Source: Acidobacteria bacterium RIFCSPLOWO2_12_FULL_66_21
GTDB taxonomy: Bacteria; Acidobacteriota; Vicinamibacteria; Vicinamibacterales; 2-12-FULL-66-21
Length of the DNA: 64,000 nt
NCBI GenBank assembly: GCA_001767455.1
Contig: MELC01000038.1
Location: forward strand, 112,753 to 176,752
Direction: 5' to 3'
In this document: positions 29,283 through 60,145 of the stretch, piece by piece
How positions within the stretch are numbered: position 1 is the stretch's first letter
Layout: the number at the start of each line of letters is the position of its first letter
Notes under the pieces: generated by a model
What the model was told of the DNA's origin: nothing
Databases searched by the model: none
Seen by the model: only the letters and a program-made list of their open reading frames with translations
Program-made: the position numbers and the translations under genes

Positions 29283-31406
29283 TTAGAAGCGAAACCGGAC
29301 TCCGCCATTCACATTCCGGCCTTCCAGCGGTGCCCAGGCGTCAACGGTCCAGCGTCCGTCCGGTGCGCGCGACGGGCGGATGAGCGGATCCCACCGTGTC
29401 TGCCTGACGCCGGTCAGGTTCTCGCCGTTGACGAAGAGCCGCACCCGCCCGAGCTGCCGTTCCACGAGCAGACCGACAACCGCATACGGGCGGCTCGTCT
29501 CGCGGAAGGGATTCTCTTCGAGCCGCTGGACGCCCGTGTAGTAGAACTCCACGCCCACGCGCCCCACGTCTTCGCGCTCCCACATGCCGACGAGGCCCGC
29601 TGAGTGGCGCGGCGTCAGCGGCGCCTGCCGGCGAGCGTCTCCCTCCTGCTCCAGCGCCTGGACGTACGTGTACGTCGCGGTGACGGCGTACGGTTCGCGG
29701 CGCAGCGCGCCGAACAGTTCGACGCCGAGATTGGTGGTGGGCTCGGACAGGTTCGTCAGCACCAGCCCGCGCGAGCGGTCGGCGTCAATGGGGTGGCGGA
29801 TTCGCGAGCCGAACAGGGTCACGGTGTACGACAGCGGACCGTCGGTCCGGCTGACGTCCAGCGACGTGCTGCGGCCTTCTTCGGCCCGCAGTCGCCCTGG
29901 AACGACCAGTCGCGAGAGTCCCGCGGCCTCGGTCTCCTCGGTCAGCGGCGACGGACCGAAGAAGCCGGTCCCGACAGACACCCGGCTCGTCCACGCGCCG
30001 GATCGCAGGAGCGCCGAGAGTCGCGGACTGAAAAACGTACCGTACTCACTGTGGCGATCGACGCGGCCGCTTGCGCTGAGCGACAACCACTTCGCGACGT
30101 CGATGTCGTCCTGCACGAACGCGCCGGGGACGGTGAACGTGTACGCAAACTGTGGAAGATCTGTCGGGCGGTACGCGTCCCGTTCGATCGCGGCGCCGGC
30201 GACGAGCGTGTGGCGCCCGGCCGGTGCGCGAACGGTCATCTCACCGAACACCGTCTCGTGCCGGTCCCGCTCGCGGACGTCGCCGAACTGGTGATCGTGC
30301 CGCTGGCCCATGACGGCCCCACGTGCGCTGACCAGGTATCGCTGCCGCAAAAGAACCTGGGCGACAACGCCCGCATCCACGCGCCGCGTGTTCAGCGTTT
30401 CGCGAAATGCTGCACCCCCGGGCGCGCCTCCGCCTTCGCGATCCTCCGCCGTCAGTCCGGCCGTCGCGAAGAAGGTCCGGCCCTTGCCGTCGTCCCAGAA
30501 CAGGCGCGGGCGTACGACGCCGCGCGAGTACCCGGGTAAGTCCGACCAGGTATCGTCGTTGACGTCGGTCTCCTCCTGCCAGTGGCCACTCCCGATCGCC
30601 GTGAAGGCCCAGCCCCGCTTCGCGGGCGTCGCATACCACCCGACAGCGTCCGTGGCGCCGCGCGTCGAGCGGTTCACCAGGAGTTCACGTTGTGTTTCCG
30701 GCGCTGGACGTCTGGAGATCAGGTTCACGACGCCGCCCATCGCGCCGGCGCCATACAACGAGGACGCGACGCCCTTGATCACTTCGACCTGTCCGAGGTC
30801 CATGGGTGGAATCTGGAGCAGACCGAGACCGCCGACTTCGCCGAAGAGCGGCAGGCCGTCCGAGAAGAACCGCGTATAGCGCCCGCGCATCCCCTGGATG
30901 CGGACGCTGGCGGCGCCGAGCGACGGCGAGGTCGTCTGCACGCGCATGCCGCCCATCTCGTTCAACATCATCACGATGTCCCCGGGCGTCATCAGCATCT
31001 TCTCCTCGATCTCCTCCCGTGCAAGTACCTCGACGCGCATGGGCTGATCCTCGAGACGCTTGTCCGTCCGCGTGGCCGAGACGGTCACCTCCTCCTCGTG
31101 CGTGGGCGGCCGCTCCAGTGCGATGACGACGTACTGGGTCTGTCCAGGCTGAACCACAACGCTCGTCGTCGCGGGCAGGAACCCTTCCTTGACCGCGGTG
31201 ATCGCAATCGTGCCCGGTCGCACGGTCACGGACACCGAGCCGGTGGCGCTCGTCGCATGGGTCGTTCCGTTGACGACGACGGCAGCGCCGGCGACGGGCG
31301 CCGAATCGAACCGTACGTCGACCTGGATCACGGCGGACGGCTGCGCGAAGGCCGTCGAGGCGCAGATGCAGCACAGAAGGAAGACGAGTCGCGGCCACGT
31401 GAACAT
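29283..31406 (-). CDS. TonB-dependent outer membrane receptor
   Basis: 707 residues with a signal peptide (MFTWPRLVFLLCCICASTAF). Residues about 25-100 are a carboxypeptidase-regulatory-like sandwich (PVAGAAVVVNGTTHATSA, ITAVKEGFLPATTSVVVQPG). The TonB-box region EEEVTVSATRTDKRLEDQP leads into the plug (PGDIVMMLNEMGGMRVQTTS, SVRIQGMRGRYTRFFSDGLP, QVEVIKGVASSLYGAGAMGG, NLISRRP). The rest is a 22-strand barrel ending in the aromatic strand VNGGVRFRF. The plug and barrel resemble colicin I/vitamin B12-type receptors. It would import a scarce ligand such as a siderophore, vitamin or sugar. No periplasmic binding or permease genes are nearby to specify it. Confidence 0.93.
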   Translation of the reverse strand: MFTWPRLVFLLCCICASTAFAQPSAVIQVDVRFDSAPVAGAAVVVNGTTHATSATGSVSVTVRPGTIAITAVKEGFLPATTSVVVQPGQTQYVVIALERPPTHEEEVTVSATRTDKRLEDQPMRVEVLAREEIEEKMLMTPGDIVMMLNEMGGMRVQTTSPSLGAASVRIQGMRGRYTRFFSDGLPLFGEVGGLGLLQIPPMDLGQVEVIKGVASSLYGAGAMGGVVNLISRRPAPETQRELLVNRSTRGATDAVGWYATPAKRGWAFTAIGSGHWQEETDVNDDTWSDLPGYSRGVVRPRLFWDDGKGRTFFATAGLTAEDREGGGAPGGAAFRETLNTRRVDAGVVAQVLLRQRYLVSARGAVMGQRHDHQFGDVRERDRHETVFGEMTVRAPAGRHTLVAGAAIERDAYRPTDLPQFAYTFTVPGAFVQDDIDVAKWLSLSASGRVDRHSEYGTFFSPRLSALLRSGAWTSRVSVGTGFFGPSPLTEETEAAGLSRLVVPGRLRAEEGRSTSLDVSRTDGPLSYTVTLFGSRIRHPIDADRSRGLVLTNLSEPTTNLGVELFGALRREPYAVTATYTYVQALEQEGDARRQAPLTPRHSAGLVGMWEREDVGRVGVEFYYTGVQRLEENPFRETSRPYAVVGLLVERQLGRVRLFVNGENLTGVRQTRWDPLIRPSRAPDGRWTVDAWAPLEGRNVNGGVRFRF

Positions 31407-31636: not shown

Positions 31637-31846
31637 ATGGGGCTGCCCGTGCTCAGCTTGGTGGTGACGGCGATTCTCTGGTGCGGACCGGCGGCTCCGG
31701 AGGGCAGGCAGCAGCTCACCTCCGGTCCGAAAGACGTCACGCTCGACAACGGGACGGTTGTGCGGGTCGAAGCAGGCGAACTCGAGGTCCCGGAGAGCAG
31801 GCGAAGGCCTATGGCCGAGATCAGGTCCAAGACACCCGTTCAGTAG
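31637..31846 (+). pseudogene. N-terminal stub of a secreted alpha/beta hydrolase
   Basis: 69 codons. A signal peptide (MGLPVLSLVVTAILW) is followed by KDVTLDNGTVVRVEAGELEV and PESRRRP. That order (strand, GT-V-AE-GELEVPE-R) is the conserved entry of secreted alpha/beta-fold hydrolases of the prolyl-aminopeptidase/tripeptidyl type, which normally continue with the catalytic domain for another 400 residues. Here the frame ends after eleven unrelated codons and runs into the end of the FHA regulator gene. It is therefore a decayed remnant. The assignment rests on one motif. Confidence 0.5.
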
Positions 31847-32483
31847 GTGGAGCACCGACGTCCGACCACTCACGGAATACGGCCCGCTCGGAACCAAACG
31901 TCACCGTGGTTCCGTCAATTAGAGGATGCGGCGCCGCGATCCGCGTCCCGTTCACGTACGTCCCGTTGGTGCTCCCGCAATCCCCGACCGTGGCGCGTCC
32001 GTCCGCGATCACGATGCGCGCGTGCACCCGCGAGACGCTGCTGGCATCGACCCAGACATCGCTTTCGGGGTGCCGCCCGACGACGTTTTCTCCCTCCGCG
32101 AGCGGCAGGATCAGGTCCCGCCATGTCAGCCACCAGCGGCACGACCGATGGGCCGGCGCGCCGGCGGGCGCCGCAAGCTGCTCTGCGTTCCCGCAGAACC
32201 GGTAGCCCCGCCGCGACACCGTGGCGATGTACTTCGGCGATTTCGGGTTGTCGCCGAGCGCCTTTCGGATCTCCGCGGCGGCGTTTCCAAGGTTTGCCTC
32301 GAGGACGACCGCGTCGGGCCAGAGGAGATCCTGCAGCTCCGTCTTCGTAACGAGCGCCGGCCGCCGTTCGAGCAGGATCTGCAGCAGGTCGAACGACTTG
32401 GGCGAAACGTGGACCGGCCGGCCGGCCTGCAGCAGCTCACGGGTCGCCGAGTCGAAGACGAACGCGTCAAAGCGGACTCTCAT
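31821..32483 (-). CDS. Winged-helix transcriptional regulator fused to an FHA domain
   Basis: 220 residues from an ATG at 32483 (a TTG five codons earlier is less likely). Residues 1-95 form an OmpR/CadC-type winged helix: FDAFVFDSATRELLQAGRPV, SPKSFDLLQILLERRPALVT, then LGNAAAEIRKALGDNPKSPK and YIATVSRRGYRF. Residues about 130-205 are a forkhead-associated domain with the phospho-threonine pocket residues GRHPESDVWV, SVSRVHARI and STNGTYVNGTRI. FHA domains bind phospho-threonine, so the DNA-binding activity is probably steered by a Ser/Thr kinase. The gene is divergent from, and 120 bases away from, the FHA/PP2C/kinase operon, making that kinase the natural partner. Confidence 0.88.
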   Translation of the reverse strand: MRVRFDAFVFDSATRELLQAGRPVHVSPKSFDLLQILLERRPALVTKTELQDLLWPDAVVLEANLGNAAAEIRKALGDNPKSPKYIATVSRRGYRFCGNAEQLAAPAGAPAHRSCRWWLTWRDLILPLAEGENVVGRHPESDVWVDASSVSRVHARIVIADGRATVGDCGSTNGTYVNGTRIAAPHPLIDGTTVTFGSERAVFREWSDVGAPPTERVSWT

Positions 32484-32603
32484 CGCGAATCTGTGCAACG
32501 GTTATGGTTTCCCTGAGACATGGCCCGACCGCCCACCCATAATAGCAACACGGAAACACGGAAACACGGAAGGACACGGACCGAAGGCACGGAAGGGCAC
32601 GCA

Positions 32604-33464
32604 ATGGGTCAGACAGTGAAAGCGCCCGACGGGTTGAGCATCTGGAATGCGATGCGCGAAGAGCTGATGCTGAACCTCTATCCGCTGCCGTACACGACGC
32701 TGCCGCCCACGATCTTCTACGTGTACCTGCACCCCGCCGACTTCGATCGGATCGAGGGGATCGTGCACGAACTGGTCGCCCAACTGCAACGAAAGCTCAA
32801 CGACGAGGTGCGGAAGATCAATCAGGGGCGCGAGAAATCAGGCGGGATGCTGTCGCGCCTGATCGCGCAGGAGGAGGCGCCGCCCATCGCAGTGCCCCCC
32901 GGCGGCTGGGAAGTGCACGTCAACGCGGACAGAAACGGCACGCTCCAGCCGGGCCACCTCGGGATCGATTCGACGCTGCCGCTCCCGGCGCCGCTCGAAT
33001 TCGGCGGGCCGGCCACCACGCGCATCGTCAAATCCGTGCTCACGGAAACGGGCCGCAGCAGCACGACGATCGAGGTCGTTCCCGCCTCCGCCGCCAACGC
33101 GGACCTGCGCGAGCGGGCAACGCTGATCTATGACGACGATCAGGGACACCACACCTTCAGCATGCGCAAGGAGACCCTTTCGGTCGGCCGCGGCGGAAGC
33201 TCGGTCTGGATCGACGTCCAGGTGATCACCTCGCCGCAGGTATCGCGCGAGCACTTCCGGCTCCGCCGCGACCGGTCCGGCCGGTTCTTCATCCAGGACG
33301 TCAGCAGCTGGGGGACGTCGGTCAACGACGTGCGGATCCCCGCCGCGGTGAAAGGGCCCGATGGGGTGCTCAGACCCGGCGCGGAACACGAGCTCGTCTC
33401 GCCGGCCCGCATCGATCTCGCCGGCGCGCTGGTGATGCTGTTCGAGGCCAAGCCGCTCACATGA
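32604..33464 (+). CDS. FHA-domain protein with FhaA-like (DUF3662-like) N-terminal domain
   Basis: 286 residues; the ATG at 32604 follows GGAAGG, and the upstream in-frame codons are repeat DNA. Residues 15-75 (IWNAMREELMLNLYPLPYTT, FYVYLHPADFDRIEGIVHEL) resemble the N-terminal domain of actinobacterial FhaA. A linker follows, and residues about 205-285 form an FHA domain: LSVGRGGSSVWIDVQVITSP, QVSREHFRLRRD, SSWGTSVNDVRIP. FhaA-type proteins read kinase phosphorylation and hold cell-wall factors. This is the first gene of an operon whose next genes are a membrane peptide, PP2C phosphatase, kinase and SEDS-PBP. The stop overlaps the next start (ATGA). Confidence 0.85.
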   Translation: MGQTVKAPDGLSIWNAMREELMLNLYPLPYTTLPPTIFYVYLHPADFDRIEGIVHELVAQLQRKLNDEVRKINQGREKSGGMLSRLIAQEEAPPIAVPPGGWEVHVNADRNGTLQPGHLGIDSTLPLPAPLEFGGPATTRIVKSVLTETGRSSTTIEVVPASAANADLRERATLIYDDDQGHHTFSMRKETLSVGRGGSSVWIDVQVITSPQVSREHFRLRRDRSGRFFIQDVSSWGTSVNDVRIPAAVKGPDGVLRPGAEHELVSPARIDLAGALVMLFEAKPLT

Positions 33465-33559
33465 CGACGTTGTACTGGCTGCACTTCGTCTTTCTCGCGG
33501 CGCTCGTCGCCGCCCTCGCGTGCCTGCTCTGGCTTGCGCGGGTATACGACCGTGGCTGA
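33461..33559 (+). CDS. 32-residue membrane peptide in the kinase operon
   Basis: A 33-codon gene overlaps the FHA gene by four bases (ATGA) and overlaps the GTG start of the phosphatase gene by eight bases. The product is one hydrophobic helix (FVFLAALVAALACLLWLA) with a short polar head (MTTLYWLH) and a basic tail (RVYDRG). Being wedged between two operon genes with overlaps at both ends strongly suggests real translation. It may simply couple ribosomes from one gene to the next, or serve as a membrane subunit. No family is recognised. Confidence 0.6.
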   Translation: MTTLYWLHFVFLAALVAALACLLWLARVYDRG

Positions 33560-35276
33560 GCCGCGCACGTTCGCGGGCCCGATGCTGCGCGCCGCGGCGC
33601 GCACGCACCCGGGGCGCGTCCGGGCGAACAACGAGGACGTGCCGCTCGTCGATGCGGCGCGCGGGGTGTTCGGCGTCATCGACGGCATCGGCGGGCATGC
33701 CGGCGGCGAGATCGCGGCGGCGATGGCGAAAGACGTCATCGTGCAGCGGCTCGCGCGGCCCTTGGGCGCTCCGGCGGACCGCGTGCGCGAAGCCATTGCG
33801 ATTGCGAACAACGAGATCTTCAAGCGCGCCGCCGACTCCAGCGATCTCGCGGGAATGGCCTGCGTCATCACGCTCGCGCTCGTGTCCGACGGCCGGCTGA
33901 CGATCGGCCACGTCGGCGATGCGCGGCTCTACAAGCTGCGCGCCGGGGGCATCCGGAAGCTCACGCGCGATCACTCCCCCGTCGGCGAGCGCGAAGACGC
34001 CGGAGAGCTCAGCGAGGCCGACGCGATGCGTCATCCGCACCGCAACGAGGTGTTCCGCGACGTCGGGACGGTCTTCCGCGACAAGGACGAGCAGGAATTC
34101 GTCGACATCATCGACGAACCGCTCGAGCCGGACGCCGCGATCCTCCTGTGCACTGACGGCCTCAGCGACATGCTGCCCGGGTCGACCATCGCCCATATCG
34201 TGCGGCAGCACGCGGGGAGCCCCGAACAGGTCGTCGAGGCGCTGGTTGCCGCCGCGAACGATGCCGGCGGCCGCGACAACATCACCGCCGTGTACGCCGA
34301 GATGCCGCTGTTTGCCGATGCGCTCGCTGGGGGCGCCGGCCAGCGGCTGACGCCGACGGAGCCGGCCGGGGGCAACGCTGCCCAGCCCGACCGGAACGCG
34401 ATGGCCATGCCCGCCGCGCCGGCGCATGTCGGGCGCGCGCGGCGGGCGGCGCGAGCAGTCGTATCGAGCCGCATGACCTGGTTCGCCGCCGGCGCCGTCG
34501 TTGGCGTCATCGGCGCGCTCGCGCTCACGATGTACGTTGCCACCACCCAGGTGCGTGCCCCGCGGACGCTGATCGTTGCGCCGGGCCGCACGTCGTCGTT
34601 CACCAGCATCACCGCCGCGATCGCCTCGGCGAGCCCCGGAGATGTGGTGCGCGTCGAGCCAGGCGTGTACCGCGAAGTGGTCGAAGTCCGCGACGGAATC
34701 GATCTGGTCGCGAGCAGGCCGGGGACCGTGACGATCGTTGCCTCCGCGGATGCCGCCCGGCCGCCCCTGTCGATCGTCGGCGCCCTGAACGTCCGGATCG
34801 CCGGAATCAGGATTGAGGCGGAGAAGTCGGCCGAGATCGGCGTCCGGATCACGGCGCCCGAGGCCACACTGGAGCTTGTCGAAATCGTGGGGCCGTTTCG
34901 CCACGCGTTTGCCCTCTCGCCCGGATCGTCCATCAGCGTGCGTGGCAGCCGAATCGCGGTCACGGGCACGCTGCTCGCGGTGCCCGACGATGGTCACGCG
35001 ACATTCGTCAACTCCATCCTGATGCGCACCGCCACCACAGCATTGAGCGAACCGGCGATCTCCGCGAGCCCGTCAGCCCACCTCGTCCTGCGCGGAAACG
35101 TGTTCAACGGTTTTGGCTCCGACATCGTCGAGGGCGTCACGGAGGCGCAGCGCGCGCAGCTCGTCGGAGGCAACACCGTCGTCGCCGCCGGCCGTGGCGG
35201 GCCCGGTGTGTCAGAGCCGGCGGCGGGACGCGGGTCGAGCGTGCCCCGGTCACGCACCCCAAGGGGCGGCCGCTGA
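33552..35276 (+). CDS. Membrane PP2C-type Ser/Thr phosphatase with external beta-helix domain
   Basis: 574 residues from a GTG at 33552. Residues 10-250 are a PP2C catalytic domain with all metal-site motifs: VRANNEDVPL, FGVIDGIGGHAGGEIAA, GHVGDARLYKL, RDHSPVGE, CTDGLSDMLPG and GGRDNITAV. After a linker a single helix (residues about 309-333) crosses the membrane. The external part (340-540) looks like a right-handed beta-helix: SFTSITAAIASASPGDVVRV, repeated short strands ending in isoleucine/valine ladders, and the final VLRGNVFNGFG. The PstP phosphatase of actinobacteria has the same topology but a different outer domain. It would reverse the action of the kinase encoded next (one-base overlap, TGATG). 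Confidence 0.9.
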   Translation: MAEPRTFAGPMLRAAARTHPGRVRANNEDVPLVDAARGVFGVIDGIGGHAGGEIAAAMAKDVIVQRLARPLGAPADRVREAIAIANNEIFKRAADSSDLAGMACVITLALVSDGRLTIGHVGDARLYKLRAGGIRKLTRDHSPVGEREDAGELSEADAMRHPHRNEVFRDVGTVFRDKDEQEFVDIIDEPLEPDAAILLCTDGLSDMLPGSTIAHIVRQHAGSPEQVVEALVAAANDAGGRDNITAVYAEMPLFADALAGGAGQRLTPTEPAGGNAAQPDRNAMAMPAAPAHVGRARRAARAVVSSRMTWFAAGAVVGVIGALALTMYVATTQVRAPRTLIVAPGRTSSFTSITAAIASASPGDVVRVEPGVYREVVEVRDGIDLVASRPGTVTIVASADAARPPLSIVGALNVRIAGIRIEAEKSAEIGVRITAPEATLELVEIVGPFRHAFALSPGSSISVRGSRIAVTGTLLAVPDDGHATFVNSILMRTATTALSEPAISASPSAHLVLRGNVFNGFGSDIVEGVTEAQRAQLVGGNTVVAAGRGGPGVSEPAAGRGSSVPRSRTPRGGR

Positions 35277-37189
35277 TGGCGCGTGGCGACTTCGAGATCG
35301 TCGACGAGAAGCCGATCGGCTGCGGCCAGTTCGGAACGGTGTTCCGTGCCCGGCGCCGCGGCGACGGCAGGATCGCGGCGCTCAAACTGATCCTGCACCA
35401 GGGGGAGAACGGGGCGGACGCGATCGCGGCGGAGCGGCGCGGCGCAATCCTCCAGCAGGGGTTCGCGTCGCTGCACGGCATGGTGCCAGACGTGTTCGAG
35501 TTCGGCGACGACGGAAACGACTTCTTCATCGCGATGGAGCTCGTCGAGGGCCCTTCGCTCGAGGAACGGCTGCGCGGCGGTGCCCTTCCCTGCGACGAGG
35601 CGGTCGGCCATGCGTTGTGGTTGTGCGAGTTCCTCGACAAGGCACACGCGTTCTCGCCGGTGGTGGAAGGACGTCCCTACCGGCTGCTTCACAACGACCT
35701 CAAACCGGCGCACCTGAAGATCCCCGATACCGGCGAGCGGAAGGTGCTCGACTTCGGCATCGCGAAAGCGCTCGAGGAGACACGGGAGCTCGCGACCGAC
35801 GTGGGCCGCACGATCGCGTATGCCGCCCCGGAACGCCTGCTGTCCGAGCACGTCAACGTGCACGCGGATTTCTGGTCGCTGGGCGTGGTGCTCTATGAAA
35901 TGGCGTCGGGCCATCGGCCGTACCCGGCCCTCGAGGGCCCGCGTTATCGCCGTCAGCTGTACAGCGCGATCACGACAAATGCGCCCCGGGCGCCGCTGCC
36001 ACGTGACTGCCCGCAGCACCTGCAGGGCATCATCAACCGGCTGCTCGCGTTTCAGCCGGAGCACCGCTACCAGAGCGCGGCCGAGATCCACGCGGACCTC
36101 GAGCGGTTTGCCAGGGGGGAGACTCCGGCGGCCGCGGCCTACTTCGACACGCCGCTGACGGTGCCGGTGGCGAGGACGCCGGGTGCCACGGTCGCGGAGC
36201 TGTCACCGGTGTCGCTCGTCCCGCCGCCGGTGATCCCGTCGATACCACCGACCGATCCGGTGCCCCCCTCTGGCTCGCCGCGAGCGGCTATCCCGCCGAC
36301 GGAACCCACCCGTCCAGTCGAAATTCGTCCGGCGTCACGCCGGTCGTTTGCGAGCCGCCTGGCAACCGCGACGCTGACGATGGCGTTCCTGTTGATCGTG
36401 GTCACCGAAGGCGTGGCCTGGCTGTTCGCGGAGCGTTTCCGCGACACCCTTCCGTCGATCGACGAGCGCACGGTGACGGCGAGCCGGGGGGCGTACGACG
36501 CCGTCGAGCGCTGGTCGCTGTTCGATCTCGGCCTCAGGCTGCGCGTGAACAGGCCGCTCGTGTCCAGGCTGCGCACGGTCGGCGATCAGGTGATTGCCGA
36601 CTACCGCCGCGAGCTGCCGACGATGGGGCCCGAAGAATGGAGCCAGGCCCAGGCCGCGTTCAACTGGACGCGAGCGCTCTCGCCGCACGACACCAGTCTG
36701 CGAGCGAAGGAGCTCACGGCGGAGGGCCACGTTCGGCGCCTCGCGGCGCAGAAGGCGCGGCCGGCGGCGAGCGCGACCGCGATGGCGCAGACTGCGGTCG
36801 CGCGCTTTCGGGATGCCGCTCTGTCCGATCCGCGCTCGTTCGATCCGTACGTCGCGATGGCCGTGACACAGGTCTACGCGCTGGGCGATGTCGACGGCGC
36901 GCTGTCGTCGCTCGAGGAGGCAACGAAGAGGGGCTACCCGGCGACAAGACGCGAGACGGCGCTGCGGGGAGACGCATACATGCGCCGTGGGCTGACGGGC
37001 GGCAAACGCGCGGCCGTGCTCACGGGCGACGAGCGCAACGGCGCGCTCGTCCAGGCCAGAGTCGATTTCGAACAATGTGTCTCCTGGTTCTCACAGATCG
37101 TGGACTTCGGGAATGCGGCGCACAACCTCGAATCGTGCAAGGCGGAGATTCGCCGGATCGATCGGCAAATCGACGTCGAAGGTTGGTGA
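35276..37189 (+). CDS. Membrane Ser/Thr protein kinase with atypical catalytic loop
   Basis: 637 residues. Kinase domain residues 5-275: glycine loop IGCGQFGTVFRAR, lysine in AALKLIL, catalytic loop LLHNDLKPAHLKI (H139-N-D141), DFG at 159-161 in VLDFGIAK, YAAPERL and FWSLGVVLYEMASG. The catalytic aspartate and lysine are kept, but the arginine of HRD is asparagine and the metal-binding asparagine (position 146) is histidine. A proline-rich linker precedes one membrane helix (about 362-384). The external region is helical with TPR-like spacing (FDPYVAMAVTQVYALGDVDG, ATRRETALRGDAYMRRG). It could sense the envelope and act on the FHA proteins and the SEDS-PBP. Activity needs testing because of the altered loop. 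Confidence 0.88.
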   Translation: MARGDFEIVDEKPIGCGQFGTVFRARRRGDGRIAALKLILHQGENGADAIAAERRGAILQQGFASLHGMVPDVFEFGDDGNDFFIAMELVEGPSLEERLRGGALPCDEAVGHALWLCEFLDKAHAFSPVVEGRPYRLLHNDLKPAHLKIPDTGERKVLDFGIAKALEETRELATDVGRTIAYAAPERLLSEHVNVHADFWSLGVVLYEMASGHRPYPALEGPRYRRQLYSAITTNAPRAPLPRDCPQHLQGIINRLLAFQPEHRYQSAAEIHADLERFARGETPAAAAYFDTPLTVPVARTPGATVAELSPVSLVPPPVIPSIPPTDPVPPSGSPRAAIPPTEPTRPVEIRPASRRSFASRLATATLTMAFLLIVVTEGVAWLFAERFRDTLPSIDERTVTASRGAYDAVERWSLFDLGLRLRVNRPLVSRLRTVGDQVIADYRRELPTMGPEEWSQAQAAFNWTRALSPHDTSLRAKELTAEGHVRRLAAQKARPAASATAMAQTAVARFRDAALSDPRSFDPYVAMAVTQVYALGDVDGALSSLEEATKRGYPATRRETALRGDAYMRRGLTGGKRAAVLTGDERNGALVQARVDFEQCVSWFSQIVDFGNAAHNLESCKAEIRRIDRQIDVEGW

Positions 37190-37191
37190 CC

Positions 37192-40100
37192 ATGCGTGTC
37201 ATCGCGCCAGCCCCGGCCTTCAGCCGCACGTCCGGACGGCAGCAGCGCTCGCTCAACGTCGAGTTGCTCGGCCTGGCCGCCGCGTCGATCGTCGTGCTCT
37301 TCGGAATCGTGCTCGCGTACGCGGCGAAAGTGGCCAGGGTGGACGAGGTCGCGCCCGCCGGCGGCGTCATCCCGCTCTACGCGCTCGCTTCCCCCGCGGA
37401 TCTCGAGCCGGTGCTGACGCAGTTCCCCTCGCCGATCGAGCGGCAGACGGCGGCCCTCGCCCTCTACCGGCGCGCGACGTCGCCGCGGGCGCCCCTCGAT
37501 CACGTGGGCGCCCTGGCCGACGTGAGCGTTCCAGCCGCCACCGTCCGCGCCGATCGACGCCTGGTGCGGCTCGGCGCCGAGCTGGCTCGCCGCCCCGGTC
37601 TCAGCGAGGTCCGTGTCTTGTCCCGTTCCGACATCGTCTCGATGAAACCGCGGCTCGCCGTGCGAAGCCTGGCCCAGTTCAATCGTCGCGTCGCGCGCGC
37701 GATGGCCGTGTTCATCGCCGCGTTCTGGGTCGCGCACCTGCTCCGGCGCTGGCGCCGGCGGCACGACGACCCCCTCGTATTGCCGGCACTCATGCTGCTC
37801 TGCGGCGTCGGTCTCATGACGATGATCGCGTTGCGCGATCCGCTGCGCGACACGATCGCCGCGAGCGCCTTCGCGAGTGGCACCGCGCTCGGCATGGTGC
37901 TCCTCGTGCTGGCATCGGAGGTGGACTTCGAAGCGTCGCCGCTCCGGCGCGCCGTGGCCCTCCCGCTCGCGCTCGCCCTCGCGCTCGCCACGATGCTGCT
38001 CGCCTTCGGGAGCGGACCGGGCTCGAGCGGAGTGAAAGTCAACCTGTTCGGCGCGCAGCCTGTGGAAGTCATCCGGCTGCTCGTCGTGTTTGCGCTTGCG
38101 GCGTACTTCGGCCGCCGTCTCGAGCTGGTGCGCGAGCTGTCGGAGCCCCCGACCGCGTCACGCCCGTGGCTGCGCTACCTCAGCGTGCCGCGGTGGAGAG
38201 ACGTGCGGCCGGTCGTGGTGAGCATGGCCCTGGTCCTGGCCTTCTTCTTCCTCCAGAAGGACCTCGGGCCCGCGCTCGTCCTCTCCTGCGTGTTCCTCGG
38301 TCTGTTCGGCATCGCGCGCGGCAAGGTGGGCCTGGTCGTCGCCGGATTTGCGCTGCTCCTGGCGGGATTCACCGTCGCGTACTGGACCGGGGTGCCGTCG
38401 CTCGTGCGCGACCGCGTCATGATCTGGGGCGACCCGTGGAACAACGGCGTGCCTGGCGGAAACCACGTGGCGCACGGTCTATGGGCGCTGGCGACGGGCG
38501 GGCCGTGGGGCAGCGGTGCCGGACTGGGCAGCCCGAACGCGATCCCTGAAGGCCACACCGATTTCGTGCTCGCTGCCGTCGGCGAGGAGCTCGGCTACGT
38601 GGGCCTGGCGGTCGTCGTCGCGCTGTACGGGTTCCTGTGCTGGCGCTGCCTGCGGATCGCGCTGCGCGCGCCGGGCGACTTCTCGACGTTCCTGGCGGCG
38701 GGCGTGGTGCTCGTGCTCAGCGTGCAGGCGTTCGTCATCGCCGCCGGCCTGCTCGCGCTCGTGCCGCTCTCCGGCGTCGTGACGCCGTTTCTGAGCTACG
38801 GCCGCTCGTCGATGCTGGCCAATTGCCTCGCCCTCGGCCTCGTGCTGTCGGTGGGACGCCGGCAGGCGGACGCGCGGGAACACATGCGGCGGCCCGTTCG
38901 CATGCTTGGCGCCGTGCTGGCCGTCGCCGGCGCGGTCATCCTCTCGCGCGTCACCTGGGTGCAGGTCGTCCATGCCGACGAGATGGCGGCGGCCTCGAGC
39001 CTGACGCAGCAGGCGGATGGCGGATACCGCTTCGAGTACAACCCGCGGCTCCTCTCGGCGGCGCGCACGCTGGCGCGCGGCACCATCTACGACCGCAACC
39101 GGCTGCCGCTCGCAACCAGCCGGCCGGATGAAATCGCCACGCTGGCGGCCACCTACGATGCGGCGGGCGGGGTGGCGCCCGAGGCGTGCAGCGACCTCTC
39201 CACCCGTTGCTACCCGCTCGGCGGGTTTGCGTTTCACGCGGTGGGGGACTGGACGCACCAGGCGAACTGGGCCGCGCGGAACTCCTCGTACGTCGAGCGC
39301 GACAGCGACGCGCGGCTGAAAGGCTACGACGATCGCGCGCAGGTCGTTGACGTGGTCAATCCACGCACCGGCCGGCGTGACCGCGCGATCCGCCGTGATT
39401 TCAGCGTGCTGCTGCCGCTCGTTCGCCAGAGATATCGGTCCGGCGGCGATGCCGTGCGGGCGCTGCGATCGCGCGACCGCGACGTGCACAGCTCGCTGGA
39501 CGCGAGGCTCCAGGTGCGCGTGGCCGCGGCGCTGCGAGACGGCATTCTGTCAGGCGGGTTCGCGCGGGGCGCCGCTGTCGTCCTCGATGCCGGCACCGGC
39601 GAGGTCCTTGCGGCGGCAAGCTATCCATGGCCCGATGCGAGCGACCTGGAACGAGCGAGCCTGGGGCCGATGGATCGCGACGGCGCGGCACGGTGGCTCG
39701 ACCGGGCTCGCTACGGCCTCTACGCCCCGGGCTCCACGTTCAAGCTCGTCGTCGCGGGGGCCGCGCTGCGCGGCCATCACGACGGCGCGCGGTTCACGTG
39801 CGTGCGGCTGCCGGACGGCCGCGTGGGCAACTACGTGCGCGGATCGTCCCGGCCCGTTCGCGACGACCCGATGGACACGGCGCCTCACGGCGACGTGGAT
39901 CTCGACCGCGGGCTGATCGTCTCGTGCAACGCGTACTTCGCGCAGCTTGCCGTTGCGCTCGGACCGCGCGCCGTGCTCGACGCGGCGGCGCCGTTCCAGA
40001 TCGACGTGGCGCGCACGGCCACGCCCGAAGCCCTGCGGCCGTGGCTGGCGCAGGTCGGCTACGGGCAGGGCGAGGCCCTCGTGTCGCCGCTCAAGCTGGC

Positions 40101-40569
40101 GCGCGTATCCGCGTCCATCGGATCGGGCGGGACGATCGCACCGGTGCGGTGGGGGCCGGTGGAGGCAACGCGGCAGGATGACGCCTCGCCGCGGTTCCTC
40201 TCGGGAGAAGACGCGGACCGCCTCGCGCGCGCCATGCGGGCCGTGGTGACGTCCGGCACGGGGCGGGCGCTGCGATCGCATGCGGTCGCGATCGCCGGCA
40301 AGACCGGCACGGCTGAAGTCACCGGCGCGCCCGCGCACTCGTGGTTCACCGGCTTCGCGCCGTATGGACCCGGCGGTTCTGCGAGCGCCCAGCGCCCGGT
40401 GCCCGGCGCGGCCGGTTTGTCCAGCGCCCGGCGCCCAGCGCCCAGCGCCCGGGATCGCCGTATCGCCTTCGCGGTGATCGTGGAGAACGCGGGCTATGGG
40501 AGCCGCGCCGCGGCACCGATCGCGGGACACATCGTGTCGGCCGCGAAGGAACTCGGACTGATTCGGTAG
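37192..40569 (+). CDS. SEDS (RodA/FtsW) glycosyltransferase fused to a class B penicillin-binding protein
   Basis: 1125 residues. Residues 1-560 are a SEDS polymerase: multiple membrane helices, with KDLGPALVLSCVFLGLFG, the motif PEGHTDFVLAAVGEELG (H455-T-D457-F) carrying the acidic residue implicated in SEDS activity, and VTPFLSYGRSSML. A hydrophilic insert of about 115 residues (47-163) separates helices 1 and 2. After one more helix (LGAVLAVAGAVILSRVTWVQ) the class B PBP begins with RGTIYDRNRLPLATS (629-). Transpeptidase motifs are complete: S848-T-F-K851, S911-C-N913 and K1037-T-G-T. It would polymerise and crosslink peptidoglycan in one chain. It starts two bases after the kinase stop. 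A repeat-derived insert lies at about 1063-1088, and the stop codon is inside a repeat element. Confidence 0.93.
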   Translation: MRVIAPAPAFSRTSGRQQRSLNVELLGLAAASIVVLFGIVLAYAAKVARVDEVAPAGGVIPLYALASPADLEPVLTQFPSPIERQTAALALYRRATSPRAPLDHVGALADVSVPAATVRADRRLVRLGAELARRPGLSEVRVLSRSDIVSMKPRLAVRSLAQFNRRVARAMAVFIAAFWVAHLLRRWRRRHDDPLVLPALMLLCGVGLMTMIALRDPLRDTIAASAFASGTALGMVLLVLASEVDFEASPLRRAVALPLALALALATMLLAFGSGPGSSGVKVNLFGAQPVEVIRLLVVFALAAYFGRRLELVRELSEPPTASRPWLRYLSVPRWRDVRPVVVSMALVLAFFFLQKDLGPALVLSCVFLGLFGIARGKVGLVVAGFALLLAGFTVAYWTGVPSLVRDRVMIWGDPWNNGVPGGNHVAHGLWALATGGPWGSGAGLGSPNAIPEGHTDFVLAAVGEELGYVGLAVVVALYGFLCWRCLRIALRAPGDFSTFLAAGVVLVLSVQAFVIAAGLLALVPLSGVVTPFLSYGRSSMLANCLALGLVLSVGRRQADAREHMRRPVRMLGAVLAVAGAVILSRVTWVQVVHADEMAAASSLTQQADGGYRFEYNPRLLSAARTLARGTIYDRNRLPLATSRPDEIATLAATYDAAGGVAPEACSDLSTRCYPLGGFAFHAVGDWTHQANWAARNSSYVERDSDARLKGYDDRAQVVDVVNPRTGRRDRAIRRDFSVLLPLVRQRYRSGGDAVRALRSRDRDVHSSLDARLQVRVAAALRDGILSGGFARGAAVVLDAGTGEVLAAASYPWPDASDLERASLGPMDRDGAARWLDRARYGLYAPGSTFKLVVAGAALRGHHDGARFTCVRLPDGRVGNYVRGSSRPVRDDPMDTAPHGDVDLDRGLIVSCNAYFAQLAVALGPRAVLDAAAPFQIDVARTATPEALRPWLAQVGYGQGEALVSPLKLARVSASIGSGGTIAPVRWGPVEATRQDDASPRFLSGEDADRLARAMRAVVTSGTGRALRSHAVAIAGKTGTAEVTGAPAHSWFTGFAPYGPGGSASAQRPVPGAAGLSSARRPAPSARDRRIAFAVIVENAGYGSRAAAPIAGHIVSAAKELGLIR
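40378..40455 (+). repeat. In-frame GCGCCCAG-rich repeat insert in the PBP domain
   Basis: Several copies of CAGCGCCCGG and GCGCCCAGCGCCC follow each other and are translated as alanine/proline/arginine-rich residues about 1063-1088, between GFAPYGPGG and RRIAFAVIVENAGYG. In ordinary class B PBPs these two elements are separated by only a few residues, so the repeat is an insertion into a surface hairpin behind the KTGT strand. Confidence 0.65.
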
Positions 40570-40605: not shown

Positions 40606-41385
40606 ATGACACCGCTCTTGAACGCCGGCCGCAAGCTGCACGCGCGCGTGCGCAGTTTCTTCGACACGCCCCTTGACGCCACGGCGCTGCCTCTCGAACT
40701 CCTTCAGGCCGCGCTCGACCAGCTCGAACGACAAGCGCAGCCGTCCGGCCGCGGGGCGCGCGTCTTCCCGTACAACCGCGTCGTCGTGCACGTGGCGCAG
40801 CCCGACGGAGATCGCGCGGCGATCGAGGCGGTCTTCGTCGAGTTCCCCGCGCGCCTCCGCGAACGGCTCGCGGAGGTCCGCTGCGACCTGCCCGCGGACT
40901 TTCAGGCCCGCGCCGCGTACTACGACGAGGCGCCCGCCGGCCGCGGCGTGCTGTGGGTCGAGTGCGGCAACGAAGGCGAAGCTCACACGGTCGCGGATCG
41001 CGAGGTGCCCCGGCTCCGCGTGACCGTCGTGAAGGGGCAATGCGAACAGCCTGAGTACGCATTCCAGGAAGGGGGCATCGCGATCGGCCGCGGGACCGAG
41101 CCCACCGACACCCTCGGTCGCGTGCGGCGCAACCACGTCGCCTTTCTCGAGGTGCGCGACGGGGTGAGCGAGACCGTCGCCCGCGCGCACGCGCGGCTGC
41201 AGTTCGATCCCGCCACACGGTCGTACCAGTTGTTCAACGAGTCCGGCAGCAACCCGACGTTCCTGCTGCGCGAGGGGCGGAGCATCCGTCTCGCGCCACG
41301 GGACCCCCGCGGCGTGCGCGTGCAATCGGGCGACGAGGTGCAGCTGGGGCGTGCGGTCCTGAAACTTGGCATCGAGGACCGCTGA
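40606..41385 (+). CDS. FHA-domain protein with FhaA-like N-terminal domain
   Basis: 259 residues. Residues 1-105 (LNAGRKLHARVRSFFDTPLD, LPLELLQAALDQLERQAQ, ARVFPYNRVVVHVAQPDG) match the pattern of the FhaA N-terminal (DUF3662-like) domain. Residues about 160-255 form an FHA domain, with GIAIGRGTEPTDTLGRVRRN, VSETVARAHARLQFD and SYQLFNESGSNPTFLLREG. The FHA loop is less canonical than in the first FHA gene of the operon; the SxxH-type pocket is ARAHARL. It lies 36 bases after the SEDS-PBP gene, separated by a palindrome. Together with the first FHA gene it brackets the phosphatase-kinase-polymerase set, and likely scaffolds phosphorylated partners. Confidence 0.82.
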   Translation: MTPLLNAGRKLHARVRSFFDTPLDATALPLELLQAALDQLERQAQPSGRGARVFPYNRVVVHVAQPDGDRAAIEAVFVEFPARLRERLAEVRCDLPADFQARAAYYDEAPAGRGVLWVECGNEGEAHTVADREVPRLRVTVVKGQCEQPEYAFQEGGIAIGRGTEPTDTLGRVRRNHVAFLEVRDGVSETVARAHARLQFDPATRSYQLFNESGSNPTFLLREGRSIRLAPRDPRGVRVQSGDEVQLGRAVLKLGIEDR

Positions 41386-45804: not shown

Positions 45805-48411
45805 TTATTCGCATCGCAAGGCCACTGCGGGATCGACCCGCATCGCGCGGCGCGCCGGAACGGCCGCCGCGAGAACAGAAACGAGCGCGAGCGTCACAGC
45901 AACGGCCGCGAACACGCCGGCGTCGAGCACGTCCACTTCATAGAGCAGTGTCCGGAGGAGCCGCGTGAGCGCCACCGACGCGAGAAGCCCCAGGAGGAGC
46001 CCCGAGGCGGCCGGCGCGAGACCTTGCCGCAGCACGAGACGCAGCACCGTAGCCCGGTCGGCGCCGAGTGCGATGCGCAAGCCGAACTCCCGCGTCCGCT
46101 GCGCAACGAGATACGCCGTCACGCCGTACAGCCCGAAGATCGCCAGCGCAAAAGCGAGCGCCCCGAAGCTGCCGAAGAGCAGCGTGTCGAACCGCCGCGA
46201 CGAGACCGAGTCGTCGAGCATCTGCCGCACGGTGGTGACGTTGGCGATTGGCTGCGACGGATCGACGGCCACGACCGCCTCGCGCAACGCGGGCGCGAGA
46301 GCCGCAGGGTCGGTGTCGCCACGGACGCGCACCGCGATGAGGGCGTGGGTCGGTGCGTCCCTGCGGTCCGCGCAAATGAACACCATCGGGAGCGGCACGT
46401 CGTTGCTGAGCAGCTGACGCACGTCGGCCGCCACGCCCACCACCGTGAACGTTCCTTCCGCCGCGAGATTGAGTTGTTGGCCCAGCGCGGAACGTCCAGG
46501 AAACGCGCGTCGAGCCATGCGGTCGTTGATGACGGCACTCCCGGCGCCTGTCGCTCCCTCGTCCCCACACTCCCGCCCGCTGTGGATCGGAATGCCAAAC
46601 GTCCGAAAATTCGCCGACCCCACTTCGGCAATCCCAATCGGAGACGACTCGCTCGAGGGGAGTCCCGTCTTCGCTCCCGGAGGCCATGGCATCGTCATCA
46701 CCAAGTGGCTCAAACTGCTCGGCACGGCGGCCGATTCGACGGCAGGCAGTGCGCGGATGCGTTCGATCACGGCGTCGAAGAAGGCCCGGCGCGCCGCGGC
46801 CTCGGCATAGCGTGGACGCGGAAGCGTCAGCGAGGCGGTGATGACGCTGTCGGCATGAAAGCCGCGATCAACCGCGTGAAACCGGACGAGGCTCTTCGCG
46901 AGCAGCGCGGCGCCAATCATCACGACGACCGCTGCGGCGACTTCGAGTGTCACGAGGATCCGTCGCGGCCGGCTGCGGCCGCCGTCGCTCGATCGCCCGG
47001 CGCCCTTCAGCGGTTCCTGCGGATCGGCGCGACCGGCGGACACGGCGGGCGCAACGCCGAAGAACAGGCCGACCCCCAGCGTGACGCCGACCATGAAGAG
47101 CAGCACGTGGGTGTCCAGCGCGATGCCCGGGATCCTCGCCAGTTCCACGGGGCCGAACCTGACGAACGCGCGGAGCGAGTACCGCACGAGGGCGAGGCCG
47201 GGGACGGCGCCCAGAAATGCGAGCAGGACGCTTTCGACCAGCAACTGGCGAACCAGCCGGACGTGACTCGCGCCGAGCGCCATGCGCAGCGCCAGCTCCT
47301 GCCGGCGCACCGCCGCGCGCGCCAGCAGCAGATTGGCCACATTGGCGCACCCGATCAGCAGGACACACATGACGGCACCGAAGAGGAGCGCGAGAGGCGC
47401 GCGAAAATCTCCGTACAAACGCTGGTGGAGCGTCATGACGCGGAGATTGCTCTCGCGCGCCCTTGCCGGCAAGGCGGACACCCGCGATCGACGGAGCGAG
47501 ACCAGGTCGTCACGGCCCGTGGCGGACGAGGCGCCGTCCCGCAGGCGTCCGACGAAGCTGACGTAGAAGAAGCCGCCCGAAGCCATCGAGCGCGGGACGA
47601 GCGGCAGCCAGAAGTCTCTCCGTGCTGGGAATCCGAATCCCGGCGGCATGACCCCGACGACCCTGTAACTGCGGTCGTCCAGCGTGACTTCCCGATTGAG
47701 AACGTCCGGACTCCGCCCAAACGCCCGTGCCCAGAGTGAGTCGCTCAGAAGAACGGCTGGCGGGCCGCCGGCCTGCATCTCGTCTGGCGCGAACACCCGG
47801 CCGAGCGCGGGCTGCACGCGCATGACCTCAAAGAAGCGCAGCGAGACCCTCACGCCCGCCACAACTTCCGGCTGACCGGCGCCGGAGAAGTTCGCGCCTG
47901 TCGTGTTGTACAGGGCGAGCGATTCGAACGAAGGCAGAGCACTCTCCAGTGCGAGCCGCGCCGTGGGCTCGTCCATCAGCCGCGTATCCGTGCCCTGCTG
48001 CACGATCGAGATCGACACGATCCGGTCGGACCGCGGGTACGGCAGCGGACGCAGAAGCACGGCGTTCGCGATGGCAAAGAGCGCGCTGGTTGCCCCGATG
48101 GTGAGGGTCAGCGTCGTCACGGTTGCCAGCGTGAACACCGGGGTCCGCCGCAACTGGCGCCATCCGTAGCGCGCGTCCTGGATGAGGCTGTCGACGGAGG
48201 GGAACCCCCAGATCGCGCGGGACTCCTCGCGCACCCGCGTGAGGTTGCCGACCTCCACCGCCGCGCGGCGACGCGCTTCGATCTCCGGAACGCCCTCGGC
48301 CATGAGGCCTTCGGCCTTCCACACGACGTGCTGTGCCATCTCGTCGCGGAGTTCGTCGTCGAGGCGGCCGCGGCGCAGCCACGCCGTGAGGTGACGGAGG
48401 ATGCGTGTCAT
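45805..48411 (-). CDS. ADOP family permease with N-terminal prefix domain
   Basis: 868 residues. The first 80 form the cytoplasmic prefix helix bundle (MTRILRHLTAWLRRGRLDDE, LRDEMAQHVVWKAEGLMAEG, VPEIEARRRAAVEVGN). The usual plan follows: helix TLATVTTLTLTIGATSALFA, periplasmic domain with VVAGVRVSLRFFEVMRVQPA and EVTLDDRSYRVVGVMPPGF, then CANVANLLLARAAVRRQELA and LRMALGASHVRLVRQLLVES. The second copy ends with REFGLRIALGADRATVLRL and VPARRAMRVDPAVALR. A PadR gene lies 37 bases upstream on the same strand, forming the typical regulator-permease unit. Confidence 0.95.
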   Translation of the reverse strand: MTRILRHLTAWLRRGRLDDELRDEMAQHVVWKAEGLMAEGVPEIEARRRAAVEVGNLTRVREESRAIWGFPSVDSLIQDARYGWRQLRRTPVFTLATVTTLTLTIGATSALFAIANAVLLRPLPYPRSDRIVSISIVQQGTDTRLMDEPTARLALESALPSFESLALYNTTGANFSGAGQPEVVAGVRVSLRFFEVMRVQPALGRVFAPDEMQAGGPPAVLLSDSLWARAFGRSPDVLNREVTLDDRSYRVVGVMPPGFGFPARRDFWLPLVPRSMASGGFFYVSFVGRLRDGASSATGRDDLVSLRRSRVSALPARARESNLRVMTLHQRLYGDFRAPLALLFGAVMCVLLIGCANVANLLLARAAVRRQELALRMALGASHVRLVRQLLVESVLLAFLGAVPGLALVRYSLRAFVRFGPVELARIPGIALDTHVLLFMVGVTLGVGLFFGVAPAVSAGRADPQEPLKGAGRSSDGGRSRPRRILVTLEVAAAVVVMIGAALLAKSLVRFHAVDRGFHADSVITASLTLPRPRYAEAAARRAFFDAVIERIRALPAVESAAVPSSLSHLVMTMPWPPGAKTGLPSSESSPIGIAEVGSANFRTFGIPIHSGRECGDEGATGAGSAVINDRMARRAFPGRSALGQQLNLAAEGTFTVVGVAADVRQLLSNDVPLPMVFICADRRDAPTHALIAVRVRGDTDPAALAPALREAVVAVDPSQPIANVTTVRQMLDDSVSSRRFDTLLFGSFGALAFALAIFGLYGVTAYLVAQRTREFGLRIALGADRATVLRLVLRQGLAPAASGLLLGLLASVALTRLLRTLLYEVDVLDAGVFAAVAVTLALVSVLAAAVPARRAMRVDPAVALRCE

Positions 48412-49404: not shown

Positions 49405-49740
49405 ATGGCGCCCAAGGAAGGCAGCCTCATTCAGGGGAATCTCGACGTGTTGATCCTTCGCGCGCTCAGCGAGGGACCCTCGCACGGCTATGGCATCGCC
49501 CGGTGGGTGCATGCCGCGACCGACGGCGCGCTGGCCATCGAGGACCGCGCGCTCTACATCGCATTACACCGGCTCGAAGAGCGCGGCTGGCTCGTGGCCT
49601 CTTGGGGTGCCTCAGAGAACAACCGGCGCGCCCGCTACTACCGGCTGTCTCCATCAGGACGCCGCGCGCTGGCGCGCAAACAGCGCGAATGGTCGGCGCA
49701 CGCGGCGGCGATGTGCAAGGCGCTGGCGGTCAAGCCATGA
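49405..49740 (+). CDS. PadR family transcriptional regulator
   Basis: 111 residues: LIQGNLDVLILRALSEGPSH, GYGIARWVHAATDGALAIED, RALYIALHRLEERGWLVASW and ENNRRARYYRLSPSGRRALA. It is about half identical by eye to the PadR at 48449-48790, which is divergently oriented, so the two units probably arose by duplication and inversion. GGGGAGG lies upstream of the ATG. The stop overlaps the permease start (ATGA), and autoregulation of the regulator-permease unit is expected. Confidence 0.95.
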   Translation: MAPKEGSLIQGNLDVLILRALSEGPSHGYGIARWVHAATDGALAIEDRALYIALHRLEERGWLVASWGASENNRRARYYRLSPSGRRALARKQREWSAHAAAMCKALAVKP

Positions 49741-59756: not shown

Positions 59757-59884
59757 GACCGGTTCTTCAGTCCCTTCAGGGACAGACCGGCCCACATCCT
59801 GGCCTGCATCTCCCGCGCGGTTTCGAGGGCCGTCACACCCGACGGGGTGAGCGTGAAGAACCACCGCGCCGCGGGCTCCCGCGC
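59753..59884 (-). pseudogene. C-terminal fragment of a PadR regulator
   Basis: The last 43 codons before the permease read AREPAARWFFTLTPSGVTAL, ETAREMQARMWAGLSLKG, matching the wing and dimer helix of the longer PadR class that precedes permeases with the second prefix type. The upstream part of the same frame is unrelated, so the DNA-binding helices are missing. The four-base overlap with the permease start (ATGA) is retained. The following space up to 60145 shows no gene. Confidence 0.75.
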
Positions 59885-60145
59885 GGCGGACCACAATAGG
59901 GGAATAAGACAATGCATCGGAAAGACGCGCTGAAGCCAATCGAAGCTTTTCTTCGCCGAATCCAGCACACGTCCGTACCCGTGCGAGGCGCAACATCTGT
60001 AACTGCGATCGCTCGGGTCCAACGCTGCGCGTTGAAAGCCCTCGCGGTTTCGCTGCGCGGCGGGCTTGCGGCCGCGGGCGCTTCTTCGCTGTCGATGCCC
60101 GGGGACGCTGCCCGCCGGAGCCGGCGCCTGCAGCCTCGGCGTCGG

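Follow-up and report, generated by a model that had tools for sequence, protein, structure and literature searches.

Loci in which PknA/PknB-like kinases control the cell wall are best known from the Actinobacteria and Firmicutes. In PKA-like kinases, the Asn of the catalytic loop holds the second metal ion, and nearly every protein kinase has this metal-binding Asn. The non-RD kinases, among them the plant receptor kinases and IRAK, have no Arg before the catalytic Asp but keep this metal-binding Asn.

In the Actinobacteria, the passages of the source cited here group pstP, rodA, pbpA, pknA, pknB, fhaA, and fhaB as one cluster of seven genes (PMC6554272). The cited parts of a paper on WaaP likewise give N171 the second-metal role, and they describe His168 of this active enzyme on the second Mg2+ (PMC6147952). 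WaaP is like the kinase studied here in having His in place of PKA Asn171, at +5 from the catalytic Asp; it differs, as these parts describe it, in being a sugar (lipopolysaccharide heptose) kinase of another family that keeps the HRD Arg, has DLH for DFG, and binds acyl-ACP (PMC6147952). Because a figure legend in the same source states that the ADP and Mg were taken from RioK1, the contact between His and metal in WaaP may rest on a structural superposition instead of on a metal seen bound (PMC6147952). The resemblance is one residue, and it is a chemical precedent, not kinship.

A His at the same spacing is described in STRAD-alpha, an inactive protein in which, according to the cited portion of its description, His200 and Arg215 partly substitute for Mg2+; His200 lies five residues after Ser195, which occupies the position of the catalytic Asp (PMC3014569). 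STRAD-alpha is described there as having neither the catalytic Asp nor DFG, whereas the kinase studied here keeps both and is therefore nearer to WaaP in this respect. Our literature search, which covered few subscription papers, found no publication on loops reading DLKPEH, DLKPAH, DLKPGH, DVKPEH, DLKPDH, or DIKPEH, and none on SEDS fusions, Acidobacteria FHA kinases, or FtsW/PBP/FHA/PP2C loci such as the one described below; a targeted search with the same coverage found no paper on the catalytic-loop Asn/His exchange in pseudokinases.

The window kinase and its operon

The window is a stretch of 64,000 nucleotides from contig MELC01000038.1 of the soil bacterium Acidobacteria bacterium RIFCSPLOWO2_12_FULL_66_21, and it contains a Ser/Thr kinase gene that is PknA/PknB-like by sequence (Table 1). 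The closest solved sequences, among the best 60 of 518, were M. tuberculosis PknA and then the staphylococcal and M. tuberculosis PknB, and the nearest structures to the predicted kinase model were PknB/PknA (best Z 28.7 over 258 residues, 2.5 A). The Pfam Pkinase match, at 112.6 bits, exceeds its cut-off of 31.7. In a whole-protein Pfam scan at E 0.001, Pkinase and PK_Tyr_Ser-Thr were the sole matches, and the scan did not place the protein in the WaaP family. No PASTA domains were found in the whole kinase (E 0.001) or in its C-terminal part (E 5), and the PASTA kinase equivalog NF033483 scores 124.6 bits against a cut-off of 450, covering the kinase part alone.

The hydrophobic helix that follows the kinase domain is probably a membrane span; its hydrophobicity was judged by reading the sequence, and it lies in a low-confidence part of the predicted model, which has a mean pLDDT of 63.3. 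The C-terminal part is perhaps TPR-like, given its helical model and weak Pfam matches under the cut-off (TPR_21, E 0.019; TPR_16, E 0.073). Modelled alone, from two sequences, this domain has a mean pLDDT of 55.8, a confidence too low to support a fold search.

The operon has the order FHA, PP2C, kinase, fused SEDS/class B PBP, FHA. The N-terminal part of the first FHA protein matches FhaA_N weakly (E 0.013, 16.3 bits, cut-off 25), and the phosphatase scores 184.5 bits with the Stp1_PP2C_phos model, under its cut-off of 230. The C-terminal part of the PP2C protein has a very weak DUF1565 match (E 0.21) and is perhaps an outer beta-helix sensor. The synthase begins either at GTG 37186, which overlaps the kinase stop, or at ATG 37192. 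In all 20 regions compared, matches to PP2C, kinase, and SEDS occur together; FHA1 and the PBP part were each found in 18 of them and FHA2 in 16, with the misses at contig ends. The divergent regulator adjoins the operon in 12 of the 20, and the eight regions without it comprise two that are cut by the contig and six that have no match within the stretch compared. Beyond the regulator lies a TonB-dependent receptor, which has a match near the operon in one of the 20 regions. Elsewhere in the window, three MacB/FtsX-like permease ORFs have a similar make-up.

The SEDS-PBP fusion is one protein of 1127 amino acids, and the fusion is kept across the operon family. SEDS and PBP share a single ORF at 24 of 29 loci, the other five being cut by contig ends. 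Among the 24 synthases with both parts, GKTGTA is present in 22, and an SxxK expression was found in 17, with one of the misses attributable to a contig cut. Because the source genome also has two separate SEDS matches and two separate PBP matches, the one fused SEDS-PBP is an additional synthase. One of the separate SEDS matches carries an in-frame TAG inside the match.

The likeness to the Actinobacterial locus is one of gene content, with a Ser/Thr kinase, a PP2C phosphatase, two FHA proteins, a SEDS protein, and a class B PBP clustered in both (PMC6554272, in the passages cited above). The window locus differs in that it has a single kinase where the Actinobacterial one has two, lacks a PASTA match, joins SEDS and PBP in one protein, and has a loop that reads HNDLKPAH and not HRDxKPxN. 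From its neighbors, we infer that the operon has a role in cell-wall control.

Table 1. Positions in the window of the kinase gene, its motifs, and the genes around it
Feature	Position	Strand	Remarks
TonB-dependent receptor	29283-31406		
Winged-helix + FHA regulator, divergent	31821..32498	-	Trans_reg_C 1.5e-14, FHA 1.5e-19
FHA1, FHA-domain protein	32520..33464	+	Pfam FHA 1.5e-9
PP2C-type phosphatase	33534..35276	+	Pfam PP2C 1.7e-14; hydrophobic stretch (by reading), long C-terminal part
Ser/Thr kinase gene	35276..37189	+	637 aa; Pfam Pkinase 2.7e-32
Kinase protein layout			Kinase domain (Pkinase match) ~aa 10-266, linker, hydrophobic helix near aa 358-389, helical C-terminal part
Beta3 Lys37	35384..35386	+	12/12 in His clade
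Catalytic loop HNDLKPAHL	35690..35716	+	CAC AAC GAC CTC AAA CCG GCG CAC CTG, frame of ORF 35276-37189; HNDLKPAH itself 35690-35713
Loop residues			His139; Asn140 (HRD Arg lost); Asp141, catalytic base; Lys143; His146 (replaces metal-binding Asn)
His146 codon CAC	35711..35713	+	Position of PKA Asn171
DFG (Asp159-Phe160-Gly161)	35750..35758	+	His clade: Asp 12/12, Phe 11/12, Gly 12/12
APE (Ala184-Pro185-Glu186)	35825..35833	+	His clade: Pro and Glu 12/12; first position Ala 4, Ser 8
SEDS (FtsW/RodA) glycosyltransferase + class B PBP fusion	37186..40569	+	FTSW_RODA_SPOVE 5.1e-54, Transpeptidase 1.5e-29, one ORF
FHA2, second FHA-domain protein	40606..41385	+	FHA 20.4 bits, just below cut-off 20.7
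MacB/FtsX-like permease	45805-48411	-	Named from translation
MacB/FtsX-like permease	49503-52382	+	Named from translation
MacB/FtsX-like permease	57156-59996	-	Named from translation

The catalytic loop in the operon family

The initial annotation had described a catalytic loop with HND for HRD and His for the metal-binding Asn, in a kinase with normal DFG, APE, and glycine-loop motifs. The DNA read in the ORF frame bears out the loop, and the other three motifs read DFG, AAPER, and GCGQFGTV, as had been claimed. The beta3 Lys, aC Glu, catalytic Asp, DFG, and APE are all intact, and His146 follows the catalytic Asp by five residues, as Asn171 follows Asp166 in PKA. By the usual description of a Hanks-type Ser/Thr kinase, the protein passes the Pkinase cut-off and has the beta3 Lys, catalytic Asp, and DFG Asp; at the metal-binding loop Asn, a usual but not obligatory feature, it has His146 instead. 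In its missing Arg it is like the non-RD kinases, from which it differs in that they keep the Asn.

The comparisons cover Acidobacteriota genomes, among which the operon is patchy. A profile of the C-terminal part of the kinase matched 26 of 193 class genomes and 9 of 396 genomes in a sample of the phylum, four of these nine being outside the class. A whole-protein search of the 193 class genomes matched 23, with E up to 1e-60; in genome G063 it gave two overlapping pieces. One His locus (L085, genome G035) and seven Asn loci were added in a separate step, locus L031 is identical to L064 and was counted once, and L032-L035 (HRD and Asn) were used in the model alignment only. The profile matches came from 30 genomes, and the loop was readable in 29 of them, including that of the window; the remaining contig (G040, L086) is without the kinase part and was dropped. 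A dead paralogue from a second operon copy was considered and rejected, with one fused SEDS-PBP in the source genome and one C-terminal-profile match in each of the 26 class genomes.

None of the 29 operon kinases has the HRD Arg. His occupies the Asn position in 12 of them (HNDLKPAH, 3; HTDLKPAH, 2; HADLKPGH, 4; HADLKPQH, 1; HSDLKPEH, 1; HGDLKPAH, 1), from genomes that span seven genera and three families, and Asn is kept in the other 17, 11 of which read HGD[LI]KP[RK]N. The source genome has 42 Pkinase matches including the window kinase, and the best 30 of the 42 all have HRD and Asn. These counts divide the expectations of the initial annotation, which had taken same-operon homologues with a normal HRDxKPxN as a sign of a private mutation: a normal Asn does occur in 17 of the 29, but HRD occurs in none and His is fixed in a clade of 12. 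Similarly, conservation of the His among relatives in the phylum holds for the kinase's own operon clade (12/12) and fails in the sister clade (Asn in 17/17). A private mutation, a sequencing error, or a decaying gene would have to account for a His shared by 12 genomes, in which the matches are free of internal stops and are flanked by the operon. No evidence favoring this explanation was found, the clade refutes it, and we assign it a negligible probability.

In a maximum-likelihood tree of the kinase domain, the 12 His sequences form one clade (support 100/94) and the 17 Asn sequences its sister (99/94); this tree was built without L031 and two short-frame His kinases (L094 and L109). With the loop masked, support was 100/96 for the His clade and 96/93 for the Asn clade. 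Trees of PP2C (26 rows; L069 is cut in PP2C) and of SEDS-PBP (28 rows) contained the identical split into two groups, with one change each. By parsimony, with kinases of the source genome as outgroup, we infer that Asn is the older state, that the Arg was lost before the clades parted, and that a single change to His took place on the stem of the window clade. As read from these sequences, the two changes in the loop are separate, the loss of Arg being common to both clades (non-RD) and the Asn-to-His change marking one of them. Columns 18, 67, 94, 168, 177, 231, and 235 are among those disjoint between the His and Asn clades; we claim none as a compensating substitution, because two clades alone cannot separate such changes from shared descent.

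Across the His clade, whose branches add up to 3.55 substitutions per site, position 140 takes five residue types (N3 T2 A5 S1 G1) while position 146 is His in 12/12. K37, E53, D141, K143, D159, G161, E186, and D198, with the aC Glu and the aF Asp among them, are also kept in all 12, and the one departure from the DFG Phe is a member with DLG. The first Gly of the G-loop is Asp in six of the 12 (PFDQGSFGTVW type). Codons were matched for ten of the 12 loops, with eight CAC and two CAT for the His; Asn is one base change from His (CAY/AAY). The pattern at His146 is that of a retained residue, for which one column at 3.55 substitutions per site is modest evidence. A whole branch of relatives keeps the His, so the change has the look of an alternative active site that has been maintained, not of a random defect.

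Histidine loops elsewhere in the phylum

A DNA pattern for HxD[LIVMF]KPxH gave 26 matches in 23 of 396 Acidobacteriota genomes. The same pattern written backwards, as a control, gave 20, so the raw count is near chance; the reading frames, however, make 21 of the matches genuine, these being in frames with a DFG-like motif, and five are not kinases. The corresponding Asn-form pattern, searched in 60 of the 396 genomes, had 1100 matches (control, 2), which are pattern matches and not individually confirmed kinases. The same 60 genomes contained four His-pattern matches, of which three are kinases, so that His makes up about 0.3% of such loops.

Five of the 21 His kinases come from the operon clade, and 16 lie outside it. 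Those outside include an HGD-type group (L098-L101), three in one genome (L105, L118, and L119), and single cases, some with a normal HRD; the loops of the group and of the three in one genome read HRDLKPxH or HG D[LV]KPxH. Of these 16 kinases, 14 extend far enough to cover the beta3 Lys, and 13 of those have it. The DFG Asp is kept in all but one of the 16, and an APE-like motif in 13, the exceptions without a clear APE being L107, L109, and L113; the aC Glu column is too poorly aligned to be judged. L113, whose loop reads HRDLKPDH, has Arg at the beta3 Lys position and GFG in place of DFG, and is a likely pseudokinase. The kinase tree needs at least six His/Asn changes, a count that describes this sample only, because the non-operon rows were chosen for having His. 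Judged from the sequences, the exchange occurs in largely intact kinases, and rarely. Both loop changes in the window kinase that the initial annotation reported are genuine and unusual, as the sequence and its relatives attest.

Possible roles of His146

The explanation we consider fairly probable, from sequence and analogy, is catalytic activity: the window kinase would be a working non-RD Ser/Thr kinase, anchored in the membrane, that belongs to an operon dedicated to cell-wall control and has His146 as the ligand of the second metal. We favor an active kinase on three grounds: the precedent of WaaP, the retention of the catalytic Asp and DFG, and the presence of the residues whose loss is taken to define a pseudokinase. 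Weighing against it are the inactivity of STRAD-alpha despite its His at this spacing, the Asp for the first G-loop Gly in six of the 12 His-clade members, and the one member with DLG. His146 would take the role of the Asn, holding the second metal (normally Mg2+) beside the DFG Asp in the manner described for WaaP His168. With the HRD Arg missing, the kinase would be free of the usual dependence on phosphorylation of its activation loop. The helical C-terminal part may lie outside the membrane and sense an envelope signal, and the kinase may then phosphorylate Thr on its operon partners. The FHA proteins, as phosphothreonine readers, would read the phospho-Thr, the PP2C phosphatase would remove the phosphate, and the fused SEDS-PBP peptidoglycan synthase might thereby be switched or positioned.

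The initial annotation had also raised a weak kinase or a scaffold. In a nucleotide-binding protein of this sort, His146 would contact the phosphates and not the metal, and the protein would act by conformation, as STRAD-alpha suggests, where the His at +5 partly replaces Mg2+ together with Arg215 (PMC3014569, cited portion). The Arg missing from every operon kinase and the Asp for the first G-loop Gly in half of the His clade are consistent with it. A pseudokinase, as defined in the cited portion of the source, is without at least one of the beta3 Lys, the catalytic (HRD) Asp, and the DFG Asp, but the window kinase has lost none of these and all three are kept in 12/12 of its clade (PMC12599244). 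A PP2C gene also adjoins the kinase in 20/20 regions. With the other core residues kept as listed above (12/12, apart from the DFG Phe and the first G-loop Gly) and with WaaP as precedent, the evidence disfavors a weak kinase or scaffold, which we regard as unlikely.

Imidazole is a better ligand than carboxamide for Mn2+, Zn2+, and Fe2+. His146 could accordingly make the second site prefer one of these metals, so that cell-wall control would be metal-dependent, and the His is both fixed in one clade and present in other kinases of the phylum. Against such a switch, the cited parts of the WaaP paper describe the same His with Mg2+ (PMC6147952), the six window proteins scanned (Pfam) had no match to metal-transport families, and the TonB-dependent receptor recurs near the operon in 1/20 regions. 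We consider a metal-switched kinase decidedly doubtful. A broader proposal, that the His-ligand clade is still catalytic with its activity set by a different divalent metal, which would couple phospho-control of SEDS-PBP to cellular metal status, and that the exchange arose several times in the phylum, seems to us quite unlikely.

On the sequence evidence, the change from Asn to His in the window kinase is real, conserved, and unusual. The operon also documents, in the Acidobacteriota, a PknA/PknB-like locus for probable cell-wall control, with SEDS and PBP joined in one synthase. A cell-wall kinase of the PknA/PknB kind is known as such, and the new element is the change at the metal-ligand position, for which there is a chemical precedent. 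Descriptions of a working kinase loop count the metal-binding Asn among its residues. A clade with His fixed at that position and the other core catalytic residues kept, standing beside an Asn sister from the same operon, is a natural experiment on the job of the second metal ligand.
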